Below, in pieces: positions 16,456 through 33,412 of a stretch of 64,000 nucleotides of DNA (positions are counted from its first letter, which is position 1; each line of letters begins with the position of its first letter). This stretch comes from Ancylobacter defluvii. GTDB lineage: Bacteria > Pseudomonadota > Alphaproteobacteria > Rhizobiales > Xanthobacteraceae. The notes beneath the pieces were generated by a model. The model searched no databases and was not told the origin of the DNA. It worked only from the letters and a program-made list of their open reading frames with translations. The position numbers and the translations under genes were made by a program. Location of the stretch: the NCBI RefSeq assembly GCF_018390605.1, contig NZ_JAHBGD010000002.1:1-64000 (forward strand), read 5' to 3'.

Positions 16456-17415
16456 TCAGCCGCCGATCTTCGCGCAGATCGCGGGATCGGCGACATCCGT
16501 GCAGGCAGGCCCCCGGCGGAAATCGTCGTAATAGAGCCGCCAGACATTGCCGTCGCCGCCGCGATAAGGACCGAACTTGAAATACATGTGGTCGCCGAGC
16601 TGTGGCCCCTCATGGCCGATCTTGCCTTCGATCGTGACGATCCATTCGCCATTGGCAACGACGTCGATCCGTCCGTCACCCTTGGGGCCGGGCTTCACCA
16701 TGAAGACGTAGTCGATCCAGCCCGACCCGGCTGCCGGCAGCATACCGCGCGGCGTTACTCTGATATCCGGCGTGCAGCCGGTAAAGCCGGCCTCTTCCGG
16801 TCCCATCGCCCCCGGCTCGATGGCGATCAAGGTGCGGAATTGATTGAACTCGTCCGGCGGCGCGGCGATCGCCTCGCCGGGCTTGCAGCCGGTCGGCCGC
16901 TCCGGCGTGCCGATGGGAGCAAACTCGCCGGTGTCGGTGTCGACGGTGATCGCGACTCGCCCCTCCATAAGGCGCAGGGCAAGCAACGGGCTGTAGTCGC
17001 CCATCGCGCCAGGATCGATCTCGCGTTTCCACTGCATCATCACGTAGCGGTGGCGCTCGGTTGAAATCGGCTGGGCAAGCTGCATCGACAGCCCGTACCA
17101 TGTCGGCTGGCCGTAGGGCACCAGCACCTCGGGCTTCTCCCAGATCTCTGCGCGCTCGCTGCACAGCTCGTTCTCTGGCTTGCACAACGGCCGCACCGAT
17201 AGGTCGAGCGCCTGCTGGCCGCTGCGAACCACCTGAGACTGGAACACCACGGTTCCGGCGCTCTGCTCGCGGTTGTGCTTGTAGTAGAGGCCTCCTGCCG
17301 GCGTGAAGTCCTGTCCTTCGAACCCGTCGATGAGGGGAACATTCCTGGCCGGGTCGGCCATGCCCTGCGAGGTGAGCAGGGTTGCGAGCAGGGCAAGGGT
17401 CGTGGCAGTGCGCAT
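16456..17415 (-). CDS. Secreted polysaccharide-lyase-like (heparin lyase I type) protein
   Basis: 319 residues with a signal peptide (TTLALLATLLTSQGMA, cleavage near residue 20). The mature part looks like a beta-jelly-roll lyase of the Polysacc_lyase/heparin-lyase-I group: YYKHNREQ, a RAEIW strand, MQWKRE, and the C-terminal YFKFGPYRGG and YYDDFRRG. Four cysteines pair plausibly (CKPENELC, plus CTDVADPAIC at the end). The ATG at 17415 places the hydrophobic core correctly; an upstream TTG at 17430 adds five residues. It is convergent with the nucleotide-sugar dehydrogenase (14-bp gap) and divergent from the ABC-like gene. It may trim or release an exopolysaccharide; substrate unknown. Confidence 0.6.
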   Translation of the reverse strand: MRTATTLALLATLLTSQGMADPARNVPLIDGFEGQDFTPAGGLYYKHNREQSAGTVVFQSQVVRSGQQALDLSVRPLCKPENELCSERAEIWEKPEVLVPYGQPTWYGLSMQLAQPISTERHRYVMMQWKREIDPGAMGDYSPLLALRLMEGRVAITVDTDTGEFAPIGTPERPTGCKPGEAIAAPPDEFNQFRTLIAIEPGAMGPEEAGFTGCTPDIRVTPRGMLPAAGSGWIDYVFMVKPGPKGDGRIDVVANGEWIVTIEGKIGHEGPQLGDHMYFKFGPYRGGDGNVWRLYYDDFRRGPACTDVADPAICAKIGG

Positions 17416-17536
17416 GTCACTCGGACTCAATTGTCATGCTAAGATCATAAAGTGGTGAGGCCCTCGGCAAGCGGGCGGCGAGCACACCATTTGTAGCCGT
17501 CAGAGTACCCTTCAGCGAGAGAAGGCGCCAAGCGCG

Positions 17537-20254
17537 TTGTCGGTAAATTTTTTTCGTTACGTCTGGATGTACAGCCGGCGTGAGCAGCTCATTGTGCTGT
17601 TCTACGTGGTGGCGTCGCTGCCCTTCTATTGGTGGTCGCTCGACGTCCCAAAACGCATCGTCAATGAGGGCATTCAGGGCAGTGTCTTCGAGCATGGCGT
17701 AACCCAGGCCCGCCTGTTCGCCTTCACGATCTCGCTGCCCGATTTTCTCGGCGGCGGCAGCTATGTGATCTCCGACGGGCTGATGCTGGCCCAGCTGCCC
17801 TACCTCTTCGCGCTGAGCCTGGTCTTCCTCGCCCTCACGCTGATCAGCGGCTGGTTCAAATACGTCATCAATATCCGCAAGGGCGTGCTCGGCGAGCGCA
17901 TGCTGCGGCGGTTGCGCTTCGACCTGTTCGGCCTGGTGATGCGCTTCCGTCCCGAGGACATCCGCACGACCAAGTCGGCAGAAGTCACCAGCATGATCAA
18001 GGACGAGGTCGAGCCGATCGGCGGCTTCTTCGGCGAGGCCTTCATCACGCCGGCGTTTCTCGGCACCCAGGCGCTTACCGCCATGGCGTTCATCCTGGCC
18101 CAGAACCTGTGGCTCGGCACGCTGGCCATCGGCCTGATTCTGGTGCAGGGCGTCGTCATCCCGCATCTGCGCCGCGAACAGATCCGCCTTGGGCGGGAGC
18201 GGCAGATCGAATCGCGTATCCTGGCGGGACGTATCGGCGAGATGATCGAGGCGGCACCGGCGCTGCACAATTTTGGTGTCACCGGCCACTCTTCAGCAGA
18301 GATCGGCCACCGGCTCGGCACGCTGTTCGATATCCGGTTGCGGCTCTATCGCCGCAAATTTGCGGTCAAGTACCTCAACAACCTGCTCGCCCAGCTCACC
18401 CCCTTCGTCTTCTACACGCTTGGCGGCTATCTCGCCCTCCAGGGCCAGCTTGACATCGGCCAGCTGGTAGCTGTCATCGCCGCCTATCGCGACCTGCCCA
18501 CGCCGATCAAGGAGCTGATCGACTGGGACCAGCAGCGGGCAGACGTCACCGTCAAATATGAGCAGGTGGTCAGCCAGTTCTCCAAGGACACCCTGCTGCC
18601 GAAGGAAACCACAGAGCCGCCGCCGGTGATCCCTGCCGATGCGCCGATTACCGTGGTCGGCCTGCGGGTGGTCAATGGCCGCGGCCTGGTCCAGCTGGAT
18701 CGGATGTCGGTCGCCCTCGACAGGCCCGGCCGGATCGCCTTCGCCGGTCCCACCGGAGGCGGACGCGACGTTCTGGCAAAGGTGATCGGACGTCAGGTTA
18801 CCGACTATCAGGGCAGCGTGACGATCGGCAGGCACGAGCTCGCCGCGATGTCCGACCGCGAGGCCAGCAGCCTCATGCTTTACGTATCCAGCGAGCCATT
18901 CATCATGTCGGGCTCGATCCGCGACAACCTGACCCTGGCCTTGCGCCGCGCAACGCCGCGGCTGGATGAGCGGGCGCAGCTCTCCGCCAAGCAGCGCTAC
19001 TGGCTCGAAGAAGCGCGCATGACCGACAATCCGCTGGTGTCGCCCGACGCCGACTGGATCGACTATGCTGCCATCGGCGTCTCAAGTCCCGCCGAAGTCG
19101 ATACTGCCATCAGCAATGCGTTGCGCGTCGTGCGCGGCTATGACGAGATCTTTCGCGTCGGCATGTCGAGCCGCCTCGGCGACAATGTGCCGCCCGAAAT
19201 CGCGGAGCAACTGCTGGCGGCACGGCCGGCAATGATCGAGCGCTTCAGGGAACAGGGCCTCGCGCAGTATGTGGAGGCTTTCCAGCCCGACACCTTCAAC
19301 ACCAGCGCGAGCATTGGCGAAAACCTGCTTTACGGCGTGGCGGTCGGCAACCGCTTCGCGCCGGAAAACATGGCCGCCGAACCCTTCATGCGTTCGATCA
19401 TCGCGGCAGAAGCTCTTACGGCACCGCTCACCACGATCGGTATCAAGATGGTGGAGACAGTGGCGGATGTCTTTCAGGATCTGGCCCCTGACAACCCGCT
19501 GCGCGAGCGCTACTCCTTCATCGACAATGCCGAGATCGAGGCGGTGTGGCCGGAGGTGCGTTCGGCCTGGAATCGCGGCCAGCGGCGGCATCTGAGCGCA
19601 CAGGTGCGCGACAAGCTGATCGGCTATGCGCTGATGTATGTCGAGCCGCGGCACCGCCTGAACCTGATCGACGATCGGCTGGTCGCCCGCATATTGCGGG
19701 CGCGCACCAGCTTCCGGCAATTCTTGCCGGCATCGGACGCCAAGGACGTGGAGTTCTACGACGAGGGGCGGCTGATGCCAGCGGCGTCGATCCGCGACAA
19801 TTTGATATTCGGCCGCATGCGTTACGGGAAGGCGCATATGCGCGACAAGCTGCTCGCCGAGGTGGCCGAAGTGCTGAACCAGCACGGCCTGGAGAGCTTC
19901 GTGGTCTCGAAGGGCCTGGACCAGGAGGTCGGGCCGGGCGGGCGTTTGATCTCGGTGCAGCAGCGCGTGACGGTGCAATTGGCCCGCGCGATGCTGCGCC
20001 AGCCGGATATTCTCATTCTAGACGATGCTCTATCTAGCTTCGCGCCGTCGGAAGGCCATATGATCCTTCAGAACATCATGGATGCCATGCCGGGGCGGAC
20101 CATCATCGTGACCCAATCGAGCGAAGACGAACTGTCGAGCTTCGACATGGTACTGAAGTTCGAGGGTGCTAAGTTCACTGGCCTGCAGCGAAAAGACAGT
20201 GCTCAGGCCGCTTCCGAAGCGGTGGAGCCGGTGCCGGCGGTGGCATCTGCATAA
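17537..20254 (+). CDS. ABC-exporter-like membrane protein with degenerate nucleotide-binding domain
   Basis: 905 residues. Residues 1-340 are an exporter-type membrane domain with about six hydrophobic segments. The nucleotide-binding domain starts near 380 and departs from consensus at every catalytic site. Walker A reads GPTGGGRD (404-411, Lys and Ser replaced). The Q-loop glutamine is absent before PFIMSG. The signature is SVQQ (806-809). Walker B ends Asp829-Asp830 instead of Asp-Glu, and the switch histidine is Gln860. About 300 residues are inserted between Q-loop and signature, containing two further copies of the X-loop-like SIRDNL motif (592-596 as SIGEN, 751-755 as SIRDN). The start is a TTG at 17537; no earlier ATG is in frame. 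It heads the unit with the cyclic-nucleotide-binding and cyclase genes. ATP hydrolysis looks unlikely; function unknown. Confidence 0.8.
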   Translation: MSVNFFRYVWMYSRREQLIVLFYVVASLPFYWWSLDVPKRIVNEGIQGSVFEHGVTQARLFAFTISLPDFLGGGSYVISDGLMLAQLPYLFALSLVFLALTLISGWFKYVINIRKGVLGERMLRRLRFDLFGLVMRFRPEDIRTTKSAEVTSMIKDEVEPIGGFFGEAFITPAFLGTQALTAMAFILAQNLWLGTLAIGLILVQGVVIPHLRREQIRLGRERQIESRILAGRIGEMIEAAPALHNFGVTGHSSAEIGHRLGTLFDIRLRLYRRKFAVKYLNNLLAQLTPFVFYTLGGYLALQGQLDIGQLVAVIAAYRDLPTPIKELIDWDQQRADVTVKYEQVVSQFSKDTLLPKETTEPPPVIPADAPITVVGLRVVNGRGLVQLDRMSVALDRPGRIAFAGPTGGGRDVLAKVIGRQVTDYQGSVTIGRHELAAMSDREASSLMLYVSSEPFIMSGSIRDNLTLALRRATPRLDERAQLSAKQRYWLEEARMTDNPLVSPDADWIDYAAIGVSSPAEVDTAISNALRVVRGYDEIFRVGMSSRLGDNVPPEIAEQLLAARPAMIERFREQGLAQYVEAFQPDTFNTSASIGENLLYGVAVGNRFAPENMAAEPFMRSIIAAEALTAPLTTIGIKMVETVADVFQDLAPDNPLRERYSFIDNAEIEAVWPEVRSAWNRGQRRHLSAQVRDKLIGYALMYVEPRHRLNLIDDRLVARILRARTSFRQFLPASDAKDVEFYDEGRLMPAASIRDNLIFGRMRYGKAHMRDKLLAEVAEVLNQHGLESFVVSKGLDQEVGPGGRLISVQQRVTVQLARAMLRQPDILILDDALSSFAPSEGHMILQNIMDAMPGRTIIVTQSSEDELSSFDMVLKFEGAKFTGLQRKDSAQAASEAVEPVPAVASA

Positions 20255-20284
20255 AGGGGATCGTGTTCCTCAGGAGGTTGGAAA

Positions 20285-20794
20285 ATGACCATCGAGGACG
20301 AAGTCAGGTCGCTGCAGAAATTTCGCATGTTCCATCATGTGGAAGCGTCCAAGCTGAAGCTGCTGGCCATGGTCAGCGACCGGATCACCTTCCAGCGCGA
20401 CGAGGTGATTTACGAGCAGGGCGCCGAGTCCGATGCGGTCTATATCGTGCTCGAAGGCCAGTTCACGGTATCGCTGCGCACGCCGGCCGGGGTGATCAAC
20501 TTTGCCCAGCATGTGCGAGGCGCCATTCTCGGCGAGGCGGGCGTACTATGCGATCAGGTGCGCATGGTGACGATCACCGCCGAAACCCCGGTGGTGGCCC
20601 TGCGCATCGACCGCGACATCTTCCTTCAGCTGCTGAAAGAATCCCCGCCGTTCAATTTCGCCGTCATGCGTGAGCTGGGACGGCAGATCATGGACCTCAA
20701 CAACATCTGCGCCCAGCTCGTGCAGCAACTCCCGCCGGGAGCGCCGGCAGTGGATGCCGGACGTAGCGTTGCCGAGCCGCAGCACACGCACTGA
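20285..20794 (+). CDS. Stand-alone cyclic-nucleotide-binding domain protein
   Basis: 169 residues consisting of one Crp-like cyclic-nucleotide-binding beta-barrel (about 10-125) plus a short helix and a Pro/Ala-rich tail. The phosphate-binding cassette is recognisable: GEAGVLCDQVR with Glu84 and Arg93, the residues that hold the ribose and cyclic phosphate in cAMP receptors. There is no helix-turn-helix, so it is not a classical Crp/Fnr transcription factor and more likely acts by protein contact. It has a near-perfect AGGAGG (20272-20277) seven bases before the ATG, stronger than that of its neighbours. It sits 30 bp after the ABC-like gene and 8 bp before the cyclase gene, which makes it the obvious candidate receptor for the cyclase product. 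Confidence 0.85.
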   Translation: MTIEDEVRSLQKFRMFHHVEASKLKLLAMVSDRITFQRDEVIYEQGAESDAVYIVLEGQFTVSLRTPAGVINFAQHVRGAILGEAGVLCDQVRMVTITAETPVVALRIDRDIFLQLLKESPPFNFAVMRELGRQIMDLNNICAQLVQQLPPGAPAVDAGRSVAEPQHTH

Positions 20795-20802
20795 CCCCTC
20801 AG

Positions 20803-22545
20803 ATGGCCTCCCTCACCACGACCACCGGCAAGCCGGCACCCGAGAAGGTGCAGCGGGAATTCCGCGACCATCCTTGGGCGTGCCATGCGCGGTTGTGGTC
20901 GGGGATCATCCTTTTCACTTTCGTGCTGACCCATCTCGTCAACCATGCGCTCGGCATATTCGGGCTTGAGGCGATGGAGGTCGGGCAGCAATGGCGATGG
21001 CTGCTGTGGAAGTCGCTTCCCGGCAGCGTCCTTCTCTATGGCTGCTTTCTGACCCATATGGTCCTCGCCAGCCAGCGCATTCTGCGTCGCCACACCTGGC
21101 GCATGCCGCGCGACGAGGCCTGGCAGATCGTCTCGGGTCTGGCGATTCCGCTGCTGGCGGCCGGCCATGTGCTGGAAACCCGGGTGGGCGGCACCTGGTT
21201 TGGCGCGGATGAAACGTATCGCGCCGTCCTGTCACGGATGTGGCCCACGCTGGCCCTGTGGCAGACCATGCTGCTGCTGGTCGCCTGGACGCATGGCGTG
21301 GTCGGAATCCATCATTCCCTGCGCTATCAGAGCTGGTATCCGCACTGGCGGGGCACGGCCCTGATCGCCGCTATCATCGTGCCCTTGCTGGCGCTGGCCG
21401 GTTTTGTTGCTTCGGGGCGCGAGGCGGCGGCGAAATTCGTGAACCCGACCCCGATGAGCGCCGAACAGCGAGCCGGCCTCGATCGCGCACGGATGATGCT
21501 CGACAGCGGTCTCGGAGCGTTTGGCATCGGGCTCGCCGGCCTGATCAGCTTCGCTTATGTGCGGCGGCGCTCGCGTGCCACGGTGACCATCACCTATCGC
21601 GGCTTCGGGCCCGTGCAGGTGCCGCGCGGGGTCTCCGTGCTGGAGGCGAGCCGTATGCATGGCATTCCGCATCCTTCGACCTGCCGCGGGCGGGGGCGAT
21701 GCTCGACTTGCCGGGTGCATATCCTGTCGGGTGCGAAGGGCCTGCCGGATATGTCGGGGCCGGAGCGGCTTCTGCTTTCCCATATCGGTGCACCCGAGAA
21801 TGTACGGCTCGGCTGCCAGTTGCGCCCCGATCACGACATCGGCGTGAGGGTGTTGATGCCGGTGCTCGGTCGCCCCACCGCCGACGTCGATGGCGATGCG
21901 AACGAATGGGCACTGGAACGGAGTGCCACGGTCCTGTGCCTCGACCTGAGGGCGTTCAGCACGCTGACACAGAACCGGCTTCCCTATGAAATCGCCGTGC
22001 TGATCAATCGATTCGCTGCCGAAATGACCCAGGCGGTGGAGAGCCATGACGGACATGTGGACTTGATGTATGGCGACGGGCTGCTAGCGGTGTTCGATGC
22101 CGACGAGCATCACGTCGGCGCCGGTGCGCGGGCCGCCTTGAGTGCGGCGCGCGACATGAGCCGGGTGCTCGACCTGCTCAACTCGGAAATGCGCGGGGCC
22201 CTGCCGATTCCGATCCGGGCCGGCATCGGCATCCATACCGGACCGGTTGTCCTTGCTCGCATCGGCGACGGTTTGCAGAACTCGGTCATGCGTGCCATCG
22301 GCTCGACCGTCGCCTTCTCCGTCGGGCTGGAGGCGGCTTCCAAGGAATTCCTGGCGGATTACGTGATCTCGACCTCGACCGCTGAAGCGTCCGGCTATGA
22401 CTTTACCGATCACAGCGTTCGCGACGTGGTGGTCGACACGCACAACACGACAGTGCCGGCCTATGCCATTTCCGACCGCGCGGCGCTGGACAAGATCATG
22501 GCGCGCCCTGCTATGCTGAGGGTATTGAACAAGGCCGGAGTATAG
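20803..22545 (+). CDS. cyaC: Membrane class III cyclase with tetra-His anchor and ferredoxin domain (CyaC-like)
   Basis: 580 residues in three modules. First, a six-helix membrane anchor carries one conserved-looking His in each of four helices (His44, His85, His122, His164), like diheme-b quinone-oxidoreductase anchors. Second, a plant-type 2Fe-2S domain (about 265-350) has Cys294, Cys300, Cys303 and Cys338. Third, there is a class III nucleotide cyclase domain (about 375-550). This matches CyaC of Sinorhizobium meliloti, described as a quinone-responsive diheme, 2Fe-2S adenylate cyclase. Both metal-binding aspartates are present (Asp381, Asp425). The purine-specifying Lys and Asp align with Leu421 and Arg497, and the transition-state Asn and Arg with Ala504 and Gly508, so cyclase activity is uncertain. 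It is probably coupled to the CNB gene, 8 bp upstream. Confidence 0.85.
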   Translation: MASLTTTTGKPAPEKVQREFRDHPWACHARLWSGIILFTFVLTHLVNHALGIFGLEAMEVGQQWRWLLWKSLPGSVLLYGCFLTHMVLASQRILRRHTWRMPRDEAWQIVSGLAIPLLAAGHVLETRVGGTWFGADETYRAVLSRMWPTLALWQTMLLLVAWTHGVVGIHHSLRYQSWYPHWRGTALIAAIIVPLLALAGFVASGREAAAKFVNPTPMSAEQRAGLDRARMMLDSGLGAFGIGLAGLISFAYVRRRSRATVTITYRGFGPVQVPRGVSVLEASRMHGIPHPSTCRGRGRCSTCRVHILSGAKGLPDMSGPERLLLSHIGAPENVRLGCQLRPDHDIGVRVLMPVLGRPTADVDGDANEWALERSATVLCLDLRAFSTLTQNRLPYEIAVLINRFAAEMTQAVESHDGHVDLMYGDGLLAVFDADEHHVGAGARAALSAARDMSRVLDLLNSEMRGALPIPIRAGIGIHTGPVVLARIGDGLQNSVMRAIGSTVAFSVGLEAASKEFLADYVISTSTAEASGYDFTDHSVRDVVVDTHNTTVPAYAISDRAALDKIMARPAMLRVLNKAGV

Positions 22546-22549
22546 ACGC

Positions 22550-24442
22550 GTGGCGCCTACGACGCCTTCCGATGTCCTGCGCATCGAAGATCTACGCATC
22601 TCCTTCGAGATGCATGGCCATCTCAACGAGGTGGTGAAGGGCGTCTCGCTGCGCGTGCCGGCCGGACGAACGGTCGCTCTCGTCGGGGAATCGGGATCCG
22701 GCAAGACCGTCATTTCTCAGGCCATTATGGGGCTGCTGCCGCGCAACGGCGTCATCACGCAGGGTCGTATCCTGTTCAGCGATCCGATCAAGGACGGCAA
22801 GACCCTTGATATTGCCCAATTGCCGGCCGACGGCACCAAGATGCGCAAGCTTCGCGGCGGGCGCATCGGCATGATCTTCCAGGAGCCGATGTCGTCGCTT
22901 TCGCCGGTGCACACCGTCGGCAGCCAGATCGAGGAGGCGCTTCAACTTCATCGCCCGCATCCGCGCAAGGAGGCGAGGGCGGTCACCGAGAAGATGCTCG
23001 GCCTGGTCGGTTTCCGTGACCCGTCGCGCTCCTATGACCGCTACTCGTTCGAGCTTTCCGGCGGCCTGCGCCAGCGTGCCATGCTCGCCATGGCGCTCAT
23101 CTGCCATCCGGCCCTGCTCATCGCCGACGAACCCACCACCGCGCTTGATGTCACCATTCAGGCGCAGGTGCTCAAGCTGATGAAGGAGCTTCAGCGCGAT
23201 ATCGGCATGGCGATCCTGTTGATCACCCATGATCTCGGCGTGGTCGCCAACATGGCCGATGAGGTGGTGGTGGTCTATCGCGGCGAACTGATGGAGGCCG
23301 GAACGGTCGACGACATCTTCCGTCGGCCATCGCACCCCTATCTCAAAGCCCTTCTGAAGGCGTCGCCGGACTTCGACATGAAGGAAGGCGAGCGCCTGGT
23401 GGCGCTGCGCGAGGTCGCGCCAGTGGTTCCGACCCGGAAGAAGCCGAGCTACGAAGGCAACAGTGCGCCGTTGCTGAGCGTGCGCCATCTGCGCAAGACC
23501 TATGGCTCCAAGAGCGGCGGCAGCGTGTTGGCGGTCGACGATGTGAGCTTCGACATCGGCCGCGGGGAATGCCTCGGCCTTGTCGGGGAGAGCGGATCTG
23601 GCAAGACCACCGTCGGCAACATGATCATGCGGGCGCGCAAGGCGGATGCCGGCGAGATCGTCTTCCATGGCGAGAAGGCTCCGGTGGATGTGCTGGGTCT
23701 GGATTCCCATACGCTGAAGGCCTTCCGCCCACATATGCAGATGATCTTCCAGGACCCGGTCAGCTCGCTGTCGCCACGCATGACCGTGCTCGACATCATC
23801 CGCGAACCGATGATCATCCAGGGCAAGGGCGACGCCGCTACCCAGAAGCAGCGAGCGGTCGAACTCATGCACGCCGTCGGTCTCGACCCCCGTTTTCTCA
23901 ACCGTTATCCGCACAGTTTTTCCGGCGGCCAGCGTCAGCGCATCGGCATCGCCCGTGCTCTGGCGCTCGACCCGGACCTCATCATCTGCGACGAGCCGGT
24001 CTCGGCGCTTGACGTCTCCGTGCAGGCACAGATCCTGAATCTTCTCAAAGACTTGCAAGCATCTCTTGGGCTGACGTACCTGTTCGTTTCGCACAATCTC
24101 GCCGTAGTGCACTATATGGCCGAGCGCATCGCTGTGATGGCGCGCGGCCGCATCGTCGAGATCGGGCCGCGGCAGGAACTGTTCCGCAACCCGGCACATC
24201 CCTATACGCGGTGCCTGCTGAAGGCTGTGCCGCTCCCGGATCTCGACCGGAGGCTCGATTTCGATGTCGCCATGGCCGGCGGCACCGCTTCAGATCCGGC
24301 GAGCTGGCCAGCCGAGTTCCGGGACGTCGAGGGCGGCTCCCTTCGCATGATCGATCTCGGCAACGGACACAGCGTGCTGGCAGCGGAGCGCTGCACCGCC
24401 CACGATATCGCTGTGCATAGGGGGCATCATGCGGCGCAGTAA
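22550..24442 (+). CDS. Peptide-type ABC importer, fused double ATPase subunit
   Basis: Two complete ABC ATPase domains in one chain of 630 residues, as in YejF or GsiA of oligopeptide importers. Domain 1 has Walker [12 protein letters not shown], signature LSGGLRQR and Walker [12 protein letters not shown]. Domain 2 (from about residue 305) has [19 protein letters not shown] and [10 protein letters not shown]. Each ends with the oligopeptide-transporter C-terminal segment ([16 protein letters not shown]). The start is a GTG at 22550, with GGAG nine bases before it and only 4 bp after the cyclase stop. The end overlaps the binding-protein gene by 14 bp. It would power the two permeases encoded downstream. 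Confidence 0.9.
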
Positions 24443-26345
24443 CATACTGGCTCTGATGCTGCTCTTGGTTTGTAGCAGCGTCGCTGTGGCGGCACCGGGG
24501 CGGTATCCGCCGGAACCGCCTTTGCTGCGTACCGATGTCGACATCAACCAGATGCCGGCCCTTGCCGACCGGTTGCCGGATCATCCGCGGGTCATCGACG
24601 TCGCCGGCATGGGCCGCGAGCCCGGCCGTTACGGCGGCACCATGCGCATGCTGATGGGCGACCAGCGCGACATCCGCGCCATCAGCATCTACGGCTACAC
24701 CCGGCTGGTAGTGTTCGACACCGCCGGCAAGATCGTCCCCGATATCTTGGAGAAGGTCGACGTCGAGGATGGCCGTATATTCACCCTGCATCTGCGCAAG
24801 GGGCACAAATGGTCGGATGGCTGGCCCTTCACCAGCGAGGATTTCCGCTATTTCTGGGAGGACATGGCGAATAACGAGCGGCTGAGTCCGGGCGGCCCGC
24901 CTATGCAGCTCTATGTCGACGGGGAGATCGCCAAGTTCGAGGTTGTCGACGAGACGACCGTGCGCTTCAGCTGGAGCAAGCCCAATCCCTCGTTTCTGCC
25001 GGCACTTGCCGGTGCGCAGCCGCTCGAAATCTTCGTGCCGGCGCATTATCTGCGCCAGTTCCACCAGCGGTACGCCGACCCGATACGTCTCGGCGCCATC
25101 ATTCGGCAGGAGCGGGTAAAGGACTGGGGGGCACTGCATGATCGTATGGCACGCTCCTACCGGCCGGAGAACCCGGAGCTGCCGATGCTAGGTCCCTGGA
25201 TCCCGCGCACCAAGCCACCGGCAGAATTCTTCGTCTTCGACCGCAATCCCTATTTCCATCGCGTCGACGAGCGCGGATGGCAGCTGCCCTATGTGGATCG
25301 GATCACTATCTCCATCGGCACCTCCTCGCTTATCCCGGCGAAAGTCGGCGCGGGCGGATCGGACCTTCAGGCGCGCTATCTGCGGTTCGACAATTACACC
25401 TTCCTGAAAGAGGGCGAAGAACGCGGCAACTACACCGTTCGCCTGTGGGAGCGCGGGGAGGGCTCCTATGTCGCCATCTTCCCCAATCTCAACGTGAAGG
25501 ATCCGAGCTGGCGGGCCGTATTGCGCGACGTTAATGTCCGGCGCGCATTGTCGGTCGGCATCAATCGGCGCGACATCAATCAGGTGATCTTCTTCGGGCT
25601 CGCCCACGAGGGGGCCAACACCATCATCCCTGGCAGTGCGTTGTATGATTCAAAATACGACGGCGCCTGGGCGCAATATGATCCGGCGCTCGCTAATCAG
25701 CTTCTCGATGCCGCGGGGCTGGCCAAGCGCGATGATGACGGCATTCGCCTGCTGCCGGACGGCCGACGCGCCGAGATCACCATCGAGACCGCCGGCAACA
25801 GCACCGAAGAGACCGACATTCTCGAGCTCGTTGCCTATGATTGGGAAAAGATCGGCATCAAGCTGTTCGTGCGCGCGACGCAGACCGATCTCTTGAGGCG
25901 TAGCGTCAGCTCCGGCAATGCGATGATGTCGGTGTGGCCTGGCATTGATAACGCCATTCCGGGGCCGGACATGGCGCCCGACGGCCTCTCTCCTTCGAAC
26001 TCCATGCAGTTTCAGTGGCCGCAATGGGGCCAGTTCGTCGAAACCGGCGGCCAGGTGGGCGAGAAGCCCGACCTCCCGGCGGCGCAGGAATTGATCGACC
26101 TGCAGCAGCGCTGGCGTCAATCGGTGACGACCGAGGAGCGGCAGGCCATCTGGCAGCGCATGCTACAGATCAATGCCGACGAGGTATTCACCATTGGCAT
26201 CGTCAACCGCGCCTCGCAGCCGGTGGTGGTGTCGAACCATCTGAAGAACGTTCCCGAAGTCGGTATCTTCAGTTTCGAGCCCGGCGCCTATTTCGGAGTC
26301 TACATGCCGGACACCTTCTGGTTCGACAATGCCGGTAAGGAATAA
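24429..26345 (+). CDS. ABC transporter periplasmic substrate-binding protein, family 5
   Basis: 638 residues with a clear signal peptide (hydrophobic ILALMLLLVCSSVAVA, cleavage near residue 22). The mature protein has the family 5 (DppA/OppA-like) architecture: an early YGYTRLVVFD, then FTLHLRKGHKWSDGWPFTSE, which is the SBP_bac_5 hallmark, and a C-terminal lobe ending in FEPGAYFGVY. At this length it belongs to the long oligopeptide or opine-type binding proteins. The ligand cannot be deduced. The ATG at 24429 overlaps the end of the ATPase gene; the first permease follows 3 bp after its stop. Its co-location with a redox cyclase is unusual. Confidence 0.88.
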   Translation: MRRSNILALMLLLVCSSVAVAAPGRYPPEPPLLRTDVDINQMPALADRLPDHPRVIDVAGMGREPGRYGGTMRMLMGDQRDIRAISIYGYTRLVVFDTAGKIVPDILEKVDVEDGRIFTLHLRKGHKWSDGWPFTSEDFRYFWEDMANNERLSPGGPPMQLYVDGEIAKFEVVDETTVRFSWSKPNPSFLPALAGAQPLEIFVPAHYLRQFHQRYADPIRLGAIIRQERVKDWGALHDRMARSYRPENPELPMLGPWIPRTKPPAEFFVFDRNPYFHRVDERGWQLPYVDRITISIGTSSLIPAKVGAGGSDLQARYLRFDNYTFLKEGEERGNYTVRLWERGEGSYVAIFPNLNVKDPSWRAVLRDVNVRRALSVGINRRDINQVIFFGLAHEGANTIIPGSALYDSKYDGAWAQYDPALANQLLDAAGLAKRDDDGIRLLPDGRRAEITIETAGNSTEETDILELVAYDWEKIGIKLFVRATQTDLLRRSVSSGNAMMSVWPGIDNAIPGPDMAPDGLSPSNSMQFQWPQWGQFVETGGQVGEKPDLPAAQELIDLQQRWRQSVTTEERQAIWQRMLQINADEVFTIGIVNRASQPVVVSNHLKNVPEVGIFSFEPGAYFGVYMPDTFWFDNAGKE

Positions 26346-26348: not shown

Positions 26349-27347
26349 ATGCTGCGCTATATCGCTCGCCGCATCCTGATCATGATACCGACGCTGCTGA
26401 TCACCAGCGCGTTGATCTTCACGGTGATGCAACTACCGCCCAGCGACTATTTCGAGACCTATGTCGCGGAAATGGCGGCGCAGGGCGAAAAGGCCGACAT
26501 GAGCCGCGTCGAATTCCTGAAGAAGGAGTACGGCTTCGACAAGCCTTTGATAGAACGCTATTTTCTCTGGGTGACCGGCTTCGTGCAGGGCGATTTCGGC
26601 TATTCGTTCGAATATGAAATGCCGGTGAGCGATGTCGTGGGCGAGCGTCTCGCGCTCACCGTGCTGGTGTCGTTCTGCACCATCCTTATGACTTGGGTCA
26701 TCGCCTTCCCGATCGGCATCTATTCGGCGACGCATCAGTACAGCTGGGGCGACTACGGACTGACCTTCATCGGCCTGATCGGCATCGCCGTGCCGCATTT
26801 CCTGCTGGCGCTGATCTTCATGTATTTCGCCAATGTGTGGTTCGGCCTGTCTATTGGCGGCCTGATGGACCCGGTCTATTTCAACCAGCCGATGAGCTGG
26901 GCCAAGGCGCAGTCAATCCTCGCCCATCTGTGGATCCCGGTGCTGATCATCGGTGCCGGCGGCACCGGCTCGATGGTACGCGCGATCCGGGCCAATCTGC
27001 TGGATGAGCTGCAAAAGCAGTATTATATTACTGCGAAAGCCAAGGGGCTGCCGCCGGGCAAGGCCTTGGTGAAGTACCCGCTGCGGATGTCGCTGAACTT
27101 CTTCGTCTCCCACATCGGCGACGTGTTGCCCTCCATCGTCTCGGGCTCGGAACTCACGGCCGTGGTGCTGTCGCTCCAGACTACCGGCCCGCTGCTGCTG
27201 CGCGCCCTGCAAAGCCAGGACATGTATCTCGCCGGCTCGTTCCTGCTGTTCCTCTCCTGCCTCACTGTGGTCGGGGTGCTGATCTCCGACATCCTGCTCG
27301 GTTTCCTTGATCCCCGCATCCGCCTGCAGGGAGGTCGCACGAAATGA
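26349..27347 (+). CDS. Peptide-type ABC importer permease (DppB-like)
   Basis: 332 residues with six membrane segments. The N-terminal RRILIMIPTLLITSALIFTV is typical of DppB/OppB proteins. The EAA loop that docks on the ATPase reads YYITAKAKGLPPGKALVKY. A long extracytoplasmic loop lies between segments 1 and 2. It starts 3 bp after the binding-protein gene and its stop overlaps the next permease start by 4 bp (ATGA at 27344-27347). With the DppC-like partner it forms the channel. The substrate, probably an oligopeptide or other oligomeric solute, is unknown. Confidence 0.9.
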   Translation: MLRYIARRILIMIPTLLITSALIFTVMQLPPSDYFETYVAEMAAQGEKADMSRVEFLKKEYGFDKPLIERYFLWVTGFVQGDFGYSFEYEMPVSDVVGERLALTVLVSFCTILMTWVIAFPIGIYSATHQYSWGDYGLTFIGLIGIAVPHFLLALIFMYFANVWFGLSIGGLMDPVYFNQPMSWAKAQSILAHLWIPVLIIGAGGTGSMVRAIRANLLDELQKQYYITAKAKGLPPGKALVKYPLRMSLNFFVSHIGDVLPSIVSGSELTAVVLSLQTTGPLLLRALQSQDMYLAGSFLLFLSCLTVVGVLISDILLGFLDPRIRLQGGRTK

Positions 27348-28525
27348 ATCAGTCGGTCTCCCTGCCGCCGGCCGGCGCGCCACTGCCGCATTTCGTCGCC
27401 GAGGGTGTCTTCGATCCCCAACAGGCCGACAAGCTGACCAAGGCGCAGGAGCGGGTCTATCTCGCCTCGCAGCTGACGCTGATGTGGTGGAAGTTCCGCA
27501 AGCACCGGCTGGCGCTCGCTTCCGGCATCTTCCTGATACTGCTCTATGCCTCGATCCTGATCAGCGAATTTCTGGCGCCGTATAACTACCAGACGCGGCA
27601 TACCGACTTCATCCGCACGCCGCCGCAAAGCGTGCACCTGTTTCACGAGGGACAGTTCATCGGGCCGTTCACCTATGGATTGAACGCCACGCTCGATATG
27701 AGCAACCTGAAGCGCAACTACAGCGAAAACACGCAACAGATTTTTCCGGTTCGCTTTTTCTGTCGCGGTGACAGCTATCGCTTCTGGGGCTTGTTCGAAG
27801 GAAATCTCCACCTCGTCTGTCCGAGCGAGGGCGGCACCCTGTTCCTGCTCGGCACCGATCGGTTGGGGCGAGACATGCTCTCGCGCATCATCTTTGGTGC
27901 CCGAATCTCGCTCACAATCGGGCTGATCGGCATAGCGGTCAGCTTCACGCTCGGCATCGTGATTGGCGGCCTTGCCGGTTATTATGGCGGCCTGTTCGAT
28001 CTCCTGGTGCAGCGGACCATCGAGGTCGTACAGTCGCTGCCAACCATTCCGCTCTGGCTGGCGCTCTCCGCCATCATGCCACCGAGCTGGAGCCCGATCC
28101 TGGTCTATTTCGGCATCACTGTGATCCTCGGCCTGATGGACTGGACCGGCCTTGCCCGCGCCGTCCGCTCCAAGCTGCTGTCGCTGCGCGAGGATGACTA
28201 TGTCGTCGCCGCCCAATTGATGGGAGCGGGTACGCCGCGCGTCGTGTTCCGCCATCTCGTGCCTGGCTTCATGAGCCACCTGATCGCATCGGCCACCATT
28301 GCGATCCCCAGCATGATCCTCGGCGAAACCGCCCTCAGCTTTCTCGGCCTCGGCCTGCGGCCGCCGATCACCAGCTGGGGCGTGATGCTGAACGAGGCGC
28401 AGAACATCAATATCGTCGTGCTGTATCCTTGGCTCATACTGCCGGTGGTGCCGGTGATCGCCGTGATCCTCGCCTTCAACTTTCTGGGCGACGGGTTGCG
28501 TGATGCCGCAGATCCTTACCGGTAA
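27344..28525 (+). CDS. Peptide-type ABC importer permease (DppC-like)
   Basis: 393 residues. After a cytoplasmic N-terminal arm (about 1-55) comes one membrane segment and a long extracytoplasmic region of about 110 residues. The usual DppC core follows with GTDRLGRDMLSRIIFGARIS and the EAA loop YVVAAQLMGAGTPRVVFRHL. The C-terminal LGDGLRDAADPY is standard. It is longer than the usual 290-300 residues because of the extra loop between segments 1 and 2; YejE-type permeases also have this. It is coupled to the preceding permease by an ATGA overlap and is followed 8 bp later by the methyltransferase gene. Confidence 0.9.
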   Translation: MNQSVSLPPAGAPLPHFVAEGVFDPQQADKLTKAQERVYLASQLTLMWWKFRKHRLALASGIFLILLYASILISEFLAPYNYQTRHTDFIRTPPQSVHLFHEGQFIGPFTYGLNATLDMSNLKRNYSENTQQIFPVRFFCRGDSYRFWGLFEGNLHLVCPSEGGTLFLLGTDRLGRDMLSRIIFGARISLTIGLIGIAVSFTLGIVIGGLAGYYGGLFDLLVQRTIEVVQSLPTIPLWLALSAIMPPSWSPILVYFGITVILGLMDWTGLARAVRSKLLSLREDDYVVAAQLMGAGTPRVVFRHLVPGFMSHLIASATIAIPSMILGETALSFLGLGLRPPITSWGVMLNEAQNINIVVLYPWLILPVVPVIAVILAFNFLGDGLRDAADPYR

Positions 28526-29046: not shown

Positions 29047-30966
29047 TCAGCCCTCGGCAAGCATCTCCGGCATGCCGACGAAGCGGACCGTGCCGGAAGC
29101 GAGCAGCCGGCCGACGATCTCGTCGAGGAAGCGCTCGATCCAGCCCTCATGCACCAGATGATGGGTAAGCAACCCGATCGGCTCCAATGTTCCCGCTTCG
29201 GCGGCCAGTTCCTCCTCGACCAGGCTCGCCAGACGATCCAGCAGAATGCCCTCGTCCACGAGGCCGCCGCCATCCCGCCAGGCGATCGGATCGAAATGGG
29301 TATTGATCTGCAGCAGCTGAGGGCGCGCATAGCGTGCCTTCCGTCTTTGATAGGTCGATAGCGCGCGAAAGCCACAGCCGGGCAGGGCGGTCACGAAGCC
29401 TGGATCCACCCGGTTCCAAGGCGGCACGAAGACCGGTGCCGCCTTGCTGCCGAACAGCGCTTCCACGCGCTTCAAACTTTCTCCCACCTGCGCCGCCATT
29501 ACGGCGACCGGGCGATGCCCGCCGAACTCCGCCTTTTTCTCACCGGCGGGAGCGTAGCTCCTGTGGCTCCAGCCATGCACCAGCACATCGACCATGCCGA
29601 GGGGCTCGACATGACGCACCAGTTCCAGCGTTGCGCGCGTCGGTATCGTTGCCAGCGCAATGGGTATGTTGAGGTCGATCGCGCGGCCGAGCAGGCGATC
29701 CAGCGCGGCGCTGGGCACACCGGCATCGTCGTCGCGCCACCAGAAGCGCAACTGCCGCTTCATCGTCTCGGCACGAAGCAATGCGGCGTCGAGTCGATCA
29801 AGCGCCTTGCTGCGGGCGGTCGCGCGCCCGGCGAATTCGTCGACCAGCTCCACTGCGCGGGTGGCGCCATGACGCGCGATTCCGGACCAATCCGGGCGGG
29901 GTTGCCCCAGCAAATCCGCGGCCGTCGCCGCCAAGCGATCGCCGTCGATCTCTTCGGTTGGAATGACACGCGCAAGGCCGCGCCGCTCCAGTTCGGAAGC
30001 GCGCAATGTCTGCTCGCGTTCGCCCCCTTCGGCAAAGGGCACCAACAATGCGCGAGCCCCGGCAGCCGCAAGGTCCAGCACCGTGTTGTAGCCGGCCTGG
30101 CTGATCGATAGCGCCGCCCGGCGCAGCAGCAACGGAAAATCCGGGCGCGCACGCTCGACGATCAGATTGGCCGGCGCTGCGGCCCTGAGTTCGGTGAAAT
30201 CCACCTCGGGAACACCTTGTCCGACCAGCAGGCGCCAGCGCCGTGCCGGCAGCTTGGCGGCGCCGGCGAGCGTGGCCCGTGCCAGCGGCAGGCCGGCCGT
30301 CGAACCGCCGCCGGATACCAGGATTTCGTCGCAGCCATCCGTGCCTTCATCTTCAGAAAGACGGCCTACATCATGGAGATAACCAGTATCTGTGACGCGT
30401 CGCATCAGGTCCTTCGTGGCAGGCCACGAGGCCGAAAGTGGCACGATATCGCCGTCGCCATGGAACAGCACACCGTCATAGTAGGCCGTCAGCCTCGTCA
30501 GCGCGCTTTGCGCCTTTTCCGGCTTCGATGGCGGGTTGAGCACGTCACGGATCGAGCAGAGCACCGCCGGACGCGGAAGCTGTCCCTGGGCCCTTTGCAA
30601 CACCGCTTCGAATTCGGCCGTCAGGCTGCGGCGACCGAACGGAAACAGCTCGGTGATCAACACATCCGGACGCGCCCGGTCAAACGCATCGATCAGTACC
30701 TCGGTGCGGCGGGCAAGATAGGCGTCGTCGACCGGTCGGCCGTCCGGCATCAGCAACCTACCGAAATCGGCACCGATGCAATGTAGAGGCGGCAACTGGA
30801 CGACATCGCAGCCATCGATGCGCACCGTCGAATTAGGTCGCCCGCCCGACGCCACCACTGTCCGCCATCCCTCCGCCGCCAGCGCCCGGCCGAGCGCCGC
30901 CATCCGCGCCAAATGACCGACGCCGAGCAGGTGGGTGACCACGATGAACGCCGTGCGGCCGGTCAT
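29047..30966 (-). CDS. Fused glycosyltransferase and polysaccharide-deacetylase-like protein
   Basis: 639 residues in two parts. Residues 1-395 look like a GT-B (MurG-like) glycosyltransferase: an N-terminal glycine/histidine loop THLLGVGHLARMAAL, the central SGGGSTAGL, and the C-terminal donor site LSISQAGYNTVLDLAAAG. Residues about 410-639 resemble a NodB-fold deacetylase: WWRDDDAG, then VHGWSHRSY and a late HHLVHEGW. The reading frame is continuous through the join. It is the last of four overlapping minus-strand genes; its ATG overlaps the preceding stop by 4 bp. It probably modifies a surface glycan, perhaps transferring and then deacetylating an N-acetyl sugar. Neither activity has been shown. 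Confidence 0.7.
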   Translation of the reverse strand: MTGRTAFIVVTHLLGVGHLARMAALGRALAAEGWRTVVASGGRPNSTVRIDGCDVVQLPPLHCIGADFGRLLMPDGRPVDDAYLARRTEVLIDAFDRARPDVLITELFPFGRRSLTAEFEAVLQRAQGQLPRPAVLCSIRDVLNPPSKPEKAQSALTRLTAYYDGVLFHGDGDIVPLSASWPATKDLMRRVTDTGYLHDVGRLSEDEGTDGCDEILVSGGGSTAGLPLARATLAGAAKLPARRWRLLVGQGVPEVDFTELRAAAPANLIVERARPDFPLLLRRAALSISQAGYNTVLDLAAAGARALLVPFAEGGEREQTLRASELERRGLARVIPTEEIDGDRLAATAADLLGQPRPDWSGIARHGATRAVELVDEFAGRATARSKALDRLDAALLRAETMKRQLRFWWRDDDAGVPSAALDRLLGRAIDLNIPIALATIPTRATLELVRHVEPLGMVDVLVHGWSHRSYAPAGEKKAEFGGHRPVAVMAAQVGESLKRVEALFGSKAAPVFVPPWNRVDPGFVTALPGCGFRALSTYQRRKARYARPQLLQINTHFDPIAWRDGGGLVDEGILLDRLASLVEEELAAEAGTLEPIGLLTHHLVHEGWIERFLDEIVGRLLASGTVRFVGMPEMLAEG

Positions 30967-32099
30967 GACGGAACTCCGGACGGGGAAGCAGGCAGGGAAA
31001 TTCCGACCTCGATGAAGGCCTGCCGAACCGCTGTCATTGCCGGGGCGAGGTTGCGCTCATTCGCGACGAAATGCGCGGCGGCAACTCCCATCAAGGTACG
31101 ACGCCCCGGATCATCGATCAGTTCGATGAAGCAGGCCGCCAGCGCCGCAATATCGCCCGGCGGCGCGAGGCGGCCGGTCTTGCCGTCGCTTATCACGTCG
31201 GGAATGCCGCCATAGCTGGCGGCTACGCAGGGCAGACCATGCGCCTGCGCTTCCAGATAGACGGCACCAAAGGCCTCGTTCACTCCCGGCCAGATGAAGA
31301 GATCCGACTCGGCCAGCAAGCGGCTGAGCACCGGCCGCTCGGAAACCGCCCCTAGGAAGCGCACGCGGTCGCCGAAGGCCGCGAAGAGAGCCTCGACCTC
31401 GCCGCGCGCTGGTCCATCGCCGACCACGGCCAGGCGCCATGGACGATCCGCCACCCGCGCCAGCGCATCGGCAAGCTGGCGATAGGAGGCGAGTTTGTCG
31501 CCCTCGCGCATCATCGCCACGGTGATCAAACGAATTTCTTGCGAAGACGCTGTCGGACGTGGAGCCCCAGCCAGCGGCCACTCATCGAGATCAAGAAAGG
31601 GGCGTAGATCGACGAGGCGTTGATGCGACGGCCGCAGGGCCTCGAGCATCGCACGATCATGTCGGGTCGGGGTAAGTACGAGATCGGCGCGATCAATCGC
31701 CGCCTCGCTGAGCCGATGCCCCTCGGCATAGAGCCCATCGGCCCTTTTCGGGGCCCGCGAGGCTTCTGCGATGACATAGGGCACGCCGAGTGTCTCGGCG
31801 AGGGCAGGGCCGATCAGGTCCGGCGCCTTGTAGTAGACGTGGTAGGTAAAGACGCAGGCGACCGGGTCGGCGCCGGTTTGTTCTGCGAGAATGCGCTCGA
31901 CCTCACGGCCGGCCTTCTTGCGCAGGCTATCCCAGGCAACCGATGATGGGGGTACTGTGAGAGTTCGGAGGCCGGAAGCCAACTGCACCTCATAGCCCAG
32001 CCGTCCCAGCAGCTTCAGGAATAGCCGCGCCACCGTCCGCTCGCCCGACGGAACCAGATGATCGGGCGGCTTCAGCGGCGCGAGGAACAGGATCCTCAT
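30963..32099 (-). CDS. Glycosyltransferase family 4 protein
   Basis: 378-residue GT-B retaining glycosyltransferase. The N-terminal MRILFLAPLKPPDHLVPSGE carries the acceptor-side glycine-containing loop. The C-terminal half has the nucleotide-sugar site with the E-x7-E pattern in NEAFGAVYLEAQAHGLPCVA and a preceding LAESDLFIWPG strand. It overlaps both neighbours by 4 bp, so the four glycosyltransferase genes are transcribed and translated as a unit. Donor and acceptor sugars are unknown. Family assignment is confident. Confidence 0.85.
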   Translation of the reverse strand: MRILFLAPLKPPDHLVPSGERTVARLFLKLLGRLGYEVQLASGLRTLTVPPSSVAWDSLRKKAGREVERILAEQTGADPVACVFTYHVYYKAPDLIGPALAETLGVPYVIAEASRAPKRADGLYAEGHRLSEAAIDRADLVLTPTRHDRAMLEALRPSHQRLVDLRPFLDLDEWPLAGAPRPTASSQEIRLITVAMMREGDKLASYRQLADALARVADRPWRLAVVGDGPARGEVEALFAAFGDRVRFLGAVSERPVLSRLLAESDLFIWPGVNEAFGAVYLEAQAHGLPCVAASYGGIPDVISDGKTGRLAPPGDIAALAACFIELIDDPGRRTLMGVAAAHFVANERNLAPAMTAVRQAFIEVGISLPASPSGVPS

Positions 32100-33409
32100 G
32101 ACCGCGGGCGAGCGGCGGCGAACGGCCCCATTAACTCGTCCAGCCGCGAAATGCCGGCCTCGAAGGAAAAAGCGGAGATCAGGCGTTGATAGGCCGCCTG
32201 TCCCAATCGCTGCCGCTCGGCGGGATCGGCGATGAGCGTCGCGAGAGCCTCGGCTAGTTCCACCGGGGCCTTGGGCTGCACCAGCACACCATTGACGCCG
32301 TTCTCGATGAATTCCGGTACGCCGGCGAAATCGGTAGAGATCGCCGGCAAGGCCTGCGTCGCCGCCTCCATCAGCACGTTGGGCAGGCCATCCCGATCAC
32401 CATCGCCGGCCGGACGGCTAGGCAGCACGAAAAGGTCGGCTTGCCGCATCGCCTCGACGACGGCACCCTGCGCCTGGCTGCCGCGCCACTCGATGCGCTC
32501 GGTGAGACCAAGCTCGGCAGCCCGCGCCTTCAGCGTGTCAAGCAATTCGCCGCCGCCGATGTGAACGAGCTGCCAGTGCAGGGCAGGGGGCAATCGCCCC
32601 AATGCAGCGAGAAGGTCGTCGAACCCCTTCTTTTCCACCGCACGGCCAACCGCCAGCAGTTGAACCGGCCGCGTGGGGTCGCTGCCATCAACCGGCTCGC
32701 GGCTATCCGGCGGCTGGGGAAAGCGCGCGAGGTCGAGGCCGTGATAGACGAGTTCCACCCGCTCACGAGTGCCGGGCTCGGCCACGCGTCGCAGCTCCGA
32801 CCAGCCGTCACGGGTGCAGGTCACCCCCCACCGCGCGCCGGCGATCTTCTCGCGACGCTCCCAATCGGGCGTCGTCCAAATATCCTTGGCATGCGCGGAA
32901 AACGAGAAGGAGCGGTCGGTCAGGATGGCCGCGTAGCGGGTCACCGAAGCAGGCGTGTGCAGGAAATGTACATGCAGGTGGCGGATGGCGGGATCGACCT
33001 CGCGCGCCAGCACCAGCGCCTGGCCGAGGCGACGGACACGGCTTGCCGAAAAATCGCGGGCAAGATCACGCAGGAACACCGGCAGCAACGCCCGCCAGTT
33101 CAGCCGCCACAGAACATGGCCAAGCCCGCGCATCACCCGGCGCGGATCGTCGCGCAGATATTCCGGCAGATAGAACAGTCGCGCCGTGATCTGCTCGTGC
33201 ATGGGATGACGGTAGCGATCGGTCGGACGCCGCAGCGACCAGATGTCGAAGACATAACCGGCCTGTTCCAGCGCTAGAATTTCCTGGGCGATAAAAGTTT
33301 CCGACAGACGCGGATACCCCTTGAGAACGATGGCTAGGCGAGGGGAGGTGCCCTCCCCGTGCGAAACCGGCGCCAGGCCAGCGCCGTCTTCACGCAACCG
33401 TGCCTGCAT
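32096..33409 (-). CDS. Glycosyltransferase family 4 protein
   Basis: 437 residues. The N-terminal domain begins after a short tail with LAIVLKGYPRLSETFIAQEI, a hallmark of exopolysaccharide glycosyltransferases of this group. The C-terminal domain has the donor-site pattern MRQADLFVLPS followed by GLPNVLMEAATQALPAIST. An HAKDIWTTPDWE segment near residue 175 is also typical of the family. It overlaps the downstream GT4 gene by 4 bp and follows the first gene of the operon by 3 bp. The product sugar linkage is unknown. Confidence 0.85.
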   Translation of the reverse strand: MQARLREDGAGLAPVSHGEGTSPRLAIVLKGYPRLSETFIAQEILALEQAGYVFDIWSLRRPTDRYRHPMHEQITARLFYLPEYLRDDPRRVMRGLGHVLWRLNWRALLPVFLRDLARDFSASRVRRLGQALVLAREVDPAIRHLHVHFLHTPASVTRYAAILTDRSFSFSAHAKDIWTTPDWERREKIAGARWGVTCTRDGWSELRRVAEPGTRERVELVYHGLDLARFPQPPDSREPVDGSDPTRPVQLLAVGRAVEKKGFDDLLAALGRLPPALHWQLVHIGGGELLDTLKARAAELGLTERIEWRGSQAQGAVVEAMRQADLFVLPSRPAGDGDRDGLPNVLMEAATQALPAISTDFAGVPEFIENGVNGVLVQPKAPVELAEALATLIADPAERQRLGQAAYQRLISAFSFEAGISRLDELMGPFAAARPRS

Positions 33410-33412
33410 GCG

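Follow-up and report, generated by a model that had tools for sequence, protein, structure and literature searches.

A three-gene locus of Ancylobacter defluvii encoding an ABC-exporter-like protein, a cyclic-nucleotide-binding protein and a CyaC-like protein with an altered cyclase site

Results

Organization of the trio

The 64,000-nucleotide stretch of Ancylobacter defluvii DNA analyzed here (contig NZ_JAHBGD010000002.1, positions 1 to 64,000; hereafter the window) carries three adjoining genes for an ATP-binding cassette (ABC) exporter-like protein, a protein with a cyclic-nucleotide-binding (CNB) domain and a homologue of the redox-sensitive adenylate cyclase CyaC, each altered at its active or binding site. 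A preliminary description of this DNA had proposed that the trio forms a chain from quinone redox state to cyclic nucleotide to CNB protein to a pseudo-ABC membrane target. The close packing that it reported is borne out, with all three genes on the forward strand and separated by 30 and 8 bp. The genes and their features are as follows (aa, amino acids; TMD, transmembrane domain; NBD, nucleotide-binding domain).

17537..20254, + strand: pseudo-ABC exporter, 905 aa, TTG start; conserved TMD, degenerate NBD, insert of ~260-280 aa
18737..18784, + strand: degenerate Walker A, aa 401-416, core GPTGGGRD
18854..19261, + strand: Q-loop/helical segment, internal repeat 1, invariant Asn464
19250..19741, + strand: internal repeat 2, invariant Asn596
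19724..20002, + strand: internal repeat 3, invariant Asn755, running into the degenerate signature
19937..20038, + strand: degenerate signature (ISVQQ instead of LSGGQ) and Walker B (ILILDD)
20285..20794, + strand: free CNB-domain protein, 169 aa, with no DNA-binding domain by Pfam
20531..20569, + strand: altered phosphate-binding cassette, aa 83-95, GEAGVLCDQVRMV; most of the family ends R-[ST]-A
20803..22545, + strand: CyaC-like redox pseudo-adenylate cyclase, 580 aa
20875..21447, + strand: membrane anchor with haem-type histidines H44, H48, H85, H122 and H164
21613..21828, + strand: 2Fe-2S ferredoxin domain, Cys294, 300, 303 and 338
21922..22482, + strand: altered class III cyclase domain; metal residues Asp381 and Asp425 retained, Lys/Thr/Asn/Arg replaced by L421/R497/A504/G508

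Pfam places ABC_membrane (PF00664, 40.1 bits against a cut-off of 28) and ABC_tran on the first protein, and cNMP_binding (PF00027, E 5.6e-18) as the sole match above cut-off on the second, which, as described earlier, carries no Pfam DNA-binding domain within its 169 aa and so does not qualify as a CRP/FNR transcription factor. The third protein matches Fer2 (E 8.3e-9), and its Guanylate_cyc match of 20 bits falls just below the cut-off of 21.9. Among the 25 best NCBIfam matches listed for the window, no cut-off was reached by the pseudo-ABC or CNB proteins. The closest named relatives among the matches listed are Ancylobacter species, with 93% identity for the ABC protein. Gene order and strand of the trio are kept in further genera, so the arrangement is more than chance. 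Searches of open-licence PMC papers listed none with a title or abstract opening that describes the ABC-CNB pair or the trio.

A family of ABC proteins without a canonical ATPase motif set

Homologues of the ABC protein (E <= 1e-60) were found in 58 of 190 genomes drawn evenly from the class of the window, Alphaproteobacteria, and a draw from the phylum gave a strong match in 15/200 genomes, all 15 within that same class. We examined 140 loci (numbered L; genomes are numbered G and contigs C), comprising 60 from the class sample and 80 named loci, the latter being the best 80 of at least 578 close relatives and leaning towards the trio; some loci from metagenome-assembled genomes (MAGs) are possibly misbinned, for example L113, labelled Asaia. 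From 151 ABC rows, four short or duplicate ones were removed to leave 147, and removal of the duplicates L206 and L207 left 145 distinct proteins. Because the Walker A alignment columns are partly unsure, the motif claims rest on alignment-free counts in the expected stretches: a canonical Walker A occurs in 1 of the 145, LSGG[QE] in 2 and a hydrophobic-DE Walker B in 16, and the three occur together in 0/145. Each of the three motifs was present in 28/28 MsbA-like controls, which were picked by a loose signature pattern and are biased towards signature-bearing proteins (28 of 30 rows; L291 and L296 lack the signature). The window protein retains 2/9 canonical ATPase positions, in keeping with the earlier statement that no ATPase motif is intact. 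By alignment, the Walker A Lys is retained in some members, the H-loop His in 21/147 rows and the Q-loop Gln in 3/36 and 17/111 rows.

Mean entropy was 1.34 bits in the TMD and 1.66 bits in the NBD of the pseudo-ABC proteins (n=30), as against 1.66 and 1.04 bits in the MsbA-like controls (n=28); the usual order of TMD and NBD conservation is thus inverted in this family, and invariant residues are present in its TMD. The best solved-structure matches of the ABC profile span the TMD and two parts of the NBD, leaving an insert at ~aa 486-766 uncovered. HMM-HMM comparison resolves the region from Q-loop to signature into three related segments (repeats 2/3, 98% probability; 1/3, 95%; 1/2, 82% over 22 columns), and the one Asn per repeat, Asn464/596/755, is invariant in 147/147 rows, two of which are duplicates. 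A reciprocal Mg2+ swap, pairing a Walker A Glu/Asp with a Walker B Asn, was considered and dropped, as L045 has both a Walker B Asp and a Walker A Glu.

Linkage of the ABC and CNB genes

A CNB gene lies directly downstream of the ABC gene on the same strand in 130/140 loci (51/60 class, 79/80 named), and scattered, unlinked homologues are therefore rejected for this pair. Nine class loci gave no CNB match: in L083 and L084 the domains are fused, in L039 and L078 a small gene of the same cluster adjoins the ABC gene, L086 and L088 lie at a contig end, and none was seen in L043, L079 and L081. Natural ABC-CNB fusions occur in six genomes, namely in a paralogue in the window's own genome (contig C25), in G445, in Candidatus Raskinella (L163), and in G040, G105 and G154. 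On the ABC tree the fusions of C25, G445 and L163 group together and G040 pairs with G105 (G154 was not included), which indicates at least two, perhaps three, fusion lineages. Conserved order and natural fusions support the earlier view of the genes as a unit. The complete trio is more restricted, a CyaC-like gene accompanying the ABC-CNB pair in 2 of 58 ABC-bearing class genomes (the window genome and G042), so that the co-occurrence suggested by the preliminary description holds for the pair and not in general for all three.

At the C25 locus of the window's own genome (L031, G000:C25:252000-268000) two class III cyclase genes flank the gene for the second pseudo-ABC protein, whose fused CNB domain has a canonical pocket; YcaO, TfuA and SLT-domain genes are also nearby and hint at a peptide-modification cluster. 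A Hyphomicrobiaceae MAG (PRO8) has complementary loci, L133 with ABC and CyaC-like genes and no CNB match, and L103 with ABC and CNB genes and no CyaC-like gene. A gene of cluster c6 lies near the ABC-CNB pair in 19/60 class loci (e.g. L048, L055, L063), the single scanned member being a PF12692 methyltransferase.

Loss of catalytic residues in the CyaC-like protein

The window residues aligned to K410/T484/N491/R495 of Sinorhizobium meliloti CyaC are L421, R497, A504 and G508. CyaC rows were read after four of 133 had been dropped (L170, L171, L200, L201; two duplicates and two cut before the active site, the latter supplied later by L315 and L318); a further 28 loci were then read, less six with no readable catalytic region (L344, L354, L355, L356, L357, L359). 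We counted a row as free-standing when no pseudo-ABC gene lay within the fetched flanks of ~1.5-2 kb. The Asn+Arg pair is present in 0/36 altered trio rows, in 106/110 free-standing homologues (88/88, and 18/22 among rows read later) and in 5/5 intact cyclases at ABC-CNB loci. The 36 altered and five intact rows were split by the sequence itself, and the informative contrast is consequently that with the free rows only. Arg alone is found in 4/36 altered and 110/110 free rows. Lys is kept in 0/36 and Thr in 2/36 altered rows, and free rows also vary more at these two positions (e.g. Lys 78/88). All four residues are present in the five intact rows, which come from three Chelatococcus loci, a Microvirga MAG and another MAG.

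The redox module is retained throughout: anchor His44/85/122/164 and Fer2 cysteines C294/300/303/338 are present in 36/36 altered rows, the window included, and H48 is present in most CyaC-like homologues. The identification of the window protein as a CyaC-like cyclase thus stands for its anchor and ferredoxin domain and fails for its catalytic site. In trees built by a quick method from 52/129 CyaC and 55/147 ABC rows, the 21 altered rows among the 52 form one clade (SH-aLRT 97); L135, one of the five intact rows from ABC-CNB loci, adjoins this clade, and the other four adjoin free rows. The altered cyclase domain is under purifying selection, with a ratio of non-synonymous to synonymous substitution rates (dN/dS) of 0.03-0.23 in 10 hand-picked pairs, and the highest value for any domain or pair, all of which are below 1, is 0.55 (Fer2, L092-L093).

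Two further variants were seen. The Chelatococcus loci L121, L123 and L168 have a second cyclase-like stretch between the CNB gene and the intact CyaC-like gene, without Asn-x3-Arg by pattern. L355, L356 and L359 encode proteins of 381-430 aa, away from contig ends, with the CyaC anchor His and Fer2 Cys and no readable cyclase region; a redox module without a cyclase may therefore exist too.

Alteration of the CNB pocket

The phosphate-binding cassette motif (Glu, Arg, R-[ST]-A) is a mark of nucleotide-binding CNB domains. After nine of 140 CNB rows had been left out (duplicates and the family-search loci L202-L208), R-[ST]-A was present in 0/35 altered trios, 5/5 intact trios and 88/91 remaining rows, and the pocket Arg in 13/35, 5/5 and 90/91, respectively; the sole remaining row without Arg is L101, where the start of a CyaC-like gene is cut by the contig end. 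The window protein retains Glu84 and Arg93 but has R-M-V at the R-[ST]-A position, and Tyr, Phe, Thr or Asn replaces the pocket Arg in Bosea. Since the window retains the Arg and Bosea does not, loss of Arg marks part of the lineage and not the window itself.

Cyclic-nucleotide supply

Three class III cyclase domains were found in the window genome (E <= 1), namely that of the trio and a pair on C25 close to the ABC-CNB fusion; of this pair, L308 has Asn and Arg, with Ser for Lys, and L307 is without Asn. Two further Ancylobacter genomes with the trio, searched at E <= 0.001, have a single class III cyclase, the altered one (G486), and two, both altered (G445). Neither G406 nor G467, Ancylobacter genomes without the ABC gene at E <= 1e-60, has a class III cyclase at E <= 0.001. 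No class I cyclase was found in the window genome, G486, G445, G406 or G467; other cyclase classes were not searched. Across the taxonomic family, class III cyclases occur in 90/119 genomes and the ABC gene in 7/119, so cyclases in general do not need the pseudo-ABC protein. The seven ABC-bearing genomes hold ten class III domains (3, 2, 1, 1, 1, 1, 1), each within ~8 kb of a pseudo-ABC gene, a statement that for G456 and G496 rests on the sole cyclase seen in their ABC loci. Within the fetched stretches, 14 ABC-CNB loci have a nearby class III cyclase bearing Asn and Arg, five of the CyaC type and nine others, and of these nine loci four belong to one genus and three have the cyclase on the opposite strand. 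In each of four genomes of genus g316 (L202-L205), a gene just upstream of the ABC-CNB pair and on the same strand encodes a class III cyclase that has Lys, Asn and Arg, that of L202 being a CHASE2-cyclase.

Importer and glycosyltransferase genes around the trio

The trio operon extends through a four-gene SBP_bac_5 oligopeptide-type importer to 28525 and is followed by four glycosyltransferase genes at 29047-34705.

14972-16441: UDP-glucose/GDP-mannose dehydrogenase, upstream of the trio
16456-17430, - strand: polysaccharide lyase, upstream of the trio
22550..24442, + strand: dual ATPase of the oligopeptide-type importer, 4 bp past the cyclase gene
24429..26345, + strand: SBP_bac_5 solute-binding protein, conserved near altered-cyclase trios
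26349..27347, + strand: OppB-type permease
27344..28525, + strand: OppC-type permease
29047..30966, - strand: GT28-like glycosyltransferase; its C-terminal part looks, by eye only, like the separate small gene c10 found elsewhere
30963..32099, - strand: glycosyltransferase, Glycos_transf_1 family
32096..33409, - strand: glycosyltransferase, Glycos_transf_1 family
33413..34705, - strand: GT28-like glycosyltransferase

A relative of the importer binding protein (at least 200 bits) lies in the flanks of 33/34 altered-trio named loci and 0/46 other named loci; in the class loci it was found in 2/60 (L078, L080), the altered trio L044 having none. At least two of the four glycosyltransferases have relatives in the flanks of 38/60 class and 52/80 named loci, and because the Ancylobacter glycosyltransferases lie beyond the 6-kb flank these counts are lower bounds.

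Discussion

The pseudo-ABC protein shares TMD and NBD with the type IV-fold exporters MsbA, BmrA and ABCB1, and its profile matches the ABCB1 and BmrA chains, but it differs from them in lacking an intact ATPase motif set, in its repeated Q-loop segment and in being partnered by, or fused to, a CNB protein. Heterodimeric exporters with one degenerate site likewise depart from the canonical motifs and retain one consensus site; unlike them, no member of the present family has the full canonical set, and no exporter gene adjoins the ABC gene in the window (a distant partner was not sought). Of the profile matches listed for the pseudo-ABC protein, SUR2B is one of the weaker ones, and SUR (ABCC8/9) combines the ABC-exporter fold with a regulatory rather than a transport role, acting on a channel and having working nucleotide sites. 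The CNB protein shares its fold with CRP/FNR regulators, including Clr, and differs in having no DNA-binding domain and, in the trio lineage, an altered pocket. TIGR03896 (CNB protein, bacteriocin-type transport) also links a CNB protein by name to a transporter, but the window protein scores 29 bits against a cut-off of 161 and is not a member.

The nearest counterpart of the third protein is S. meliloti CyaC, which is described as quinone-responsive, redox-sensitive and binding two haem B (PMC10463352). It is like the window protein in its membrane anchor, 2Fe-2S domain and class III cyclase domain, and unlike it in being active, in having K410/T484/N491/R495 and in lying beside the gene for the TetR-type regulator CycR, whereas the window protein is without all four residues and lies with a pseudo-ABC and a CNB gene. 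The K410A/T484A and N491A/R495A variants of CyaC served as inactive forms, and two-hybrid tests still scored both as interacting partners of Clr and CycR; Clr interacts with CyaC, and CyaC-CycR binding did not require nucleotide (PMC10463352). Signaling by contact thus has a precedent in S. meliloti.

The explanation of the locus that we favor, and to which we give about an even chance of being right as a whole, is an inner-membrane complex that would carry a redox signal by contact, with no diffusible nucleotide. The three proteins would form one complex, whose core is an ABC-exporter-fold protein apparently unable to go through a normal ATPase cycle, and whose putative cytoplasmic regulatory subunit is the CNB protein. 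In the wider family the ABC-CNB pair would bind cAMP or cGMP and probably serve a surface-glycan locus; cAMP/cGMP control there is plausible, given canonical pockets in 88/91 rows and neighboring cyclases with Asn and Arg. A CyaC-type redox sensor would have been recruited in the trio lineage, after which the cyclase active site was presumably lost and the CNB pocket changed. The putative haem/2Fe-2S module would continue to read the quinone pool, and its signal would pass through the pseudo-cyclase dimer and reach the CNB and pseudo-ABC proteins by direct contact. The stronger form of this proposal, that the second messenger has been abandoned altogether, we put forward tentatively, at somewhat below even chances: within one lineage, synthase, receptor and ABC motor all lack canonical active-site features while redox sites, folds, gene order and selection persist, and quinone state may be sensed and relayed by contact to a glycan-serving ABC-fold protein, with the importer recruited alongside.

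Several observations weigh against this proposal of a contact-based complex. With Glu84 and Arg93 in place, the window CNB protein may still be able to bind nucleotide, and the presence of L308 makes a cyclic-nucleotide supply possible in the window genome. Class III cyclases with non-canonical sites can be active; four free-standing homologues have His for Asn with Arg kept (G033, G162 and G260, of one genus, and G014), and the metal residues Asp381 and Asp425 are kept in 36/36 and 35/36 altered rows. The ABC tree agrees with the altered CyaC clade except for the pairing of L133, which has a CyaC-like gene, with L103, which lacks one, and altered trios need two changes on that tree as a result. 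Haem binding is suggested by the histidines, and the glycan role by the gene neighborhood. In vitro CyaC-Clr binding was ATP-dependent, and the K410/T484 variant showed weaker binding or none (PMC10463352).

The chain originally proposed, in which cAMP or cGMP made by the CyaC-like protein according to quinone redox state is bound by the CNB protein, which then acts on the pseudo-ABC protein, finds support elsewhere in the family. CyaC-type cyclases with all four residues occur at ABC-CNB loci (Chelatococcus and two MAGs; five rows), nine more loci encode a different class III cyclase bearing Asn and Arg within the stretch fetched, CNB pockets are canonical in 88/91 rows outside the trios and in 5/5 intact trios, and S. 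meliloti CyaC is described as quinone-responsive (PMC10463352). In the window, however, each of the four catalytic residues that do not bind metal is replaced, no altered row of the clade has the Asn+Arg pair, the CNB pocket is altered in the same lineage, and neither an intact class III cyclase nor a class I cyclase was found in two trio-bearing Ancylobacter genomes. Catalytic loss, pocket change and the missing intact cyclase together make the step from quinone to cAMP to CNB improbable here, and direct redox coupling through the pseudo-cyclase appears likelier. A related proposal keeps catalysis by splitting it. Mammalian adenylyl cyclase divides its catalytic residues between C1 and C2, and the window protein could correspond to the C1-like half with the metal Asp, a partner supplying Lys/Thr/Asn/Arg. 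The two metal aspartates, retained while the other residues were replaced, and the Asn+Arg domain of L308 fit such a half-cyclase; it is weakened by G486, in which no second class III cyclase was found at E <= 0.001, by G445, where the only other one found at that threshold is altered and without Asn, and by the pocket change in the same lineage, so that we consider it quite unlikely.

Two other readings each have a small share of probability. The pseudo-cyclase domain could bind, but not turn over, some other ligand such as a metal-nucleotide or pyrophosphate, making the trio an allosteric nucleotide-and-redox sensor; conservation of the metal Asp and purifying selection on the domain are consistent with this, but Lys and Thr are almost entirely gone from the altered rows, and we regard it as doubtful. 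Similarly doubtful is that the ABC protein transports a glycolipid or oligosaccharide by an unorthodox or residual ATPase, with the CNB and CyaC-like proteins regulating transport: the TMD is better conserved than the NBD, glycosyltransferase genes are frequent in the flanks and some members appear to keep the Walker A Lys, against which stand the lack of the full motif set in every member and the two canonical positions left in the window protein. That the genes are decaying remnants without function might be suspected from active sites altered in all three proteins, yet the frames are open across genera, residues in the TMD, anchor and Fer2 domain are invariant, and none of the dN/dS values obtained for the domains and pairs reaches 1; we reject decay, which we consider extremely improbable.

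Pseudoenzymes are well known among kinases. The signaling complex favored here would offer a bacterial case in which a second-messenger synthase and its receptor change together, with close relatives on both sides of the loss, the intact Chelatococcus-type loci on one and the altered Ancylobacter and Bosea loci on the other. It would make testable the idea that signaling domains may go on working by contact once the messenger chemistry is gone. The comparison also brings to light a large family of ABC proteins that are degenerate, have a CNB partner and are frequently encoded close to a conserved glycosyltransferase block.

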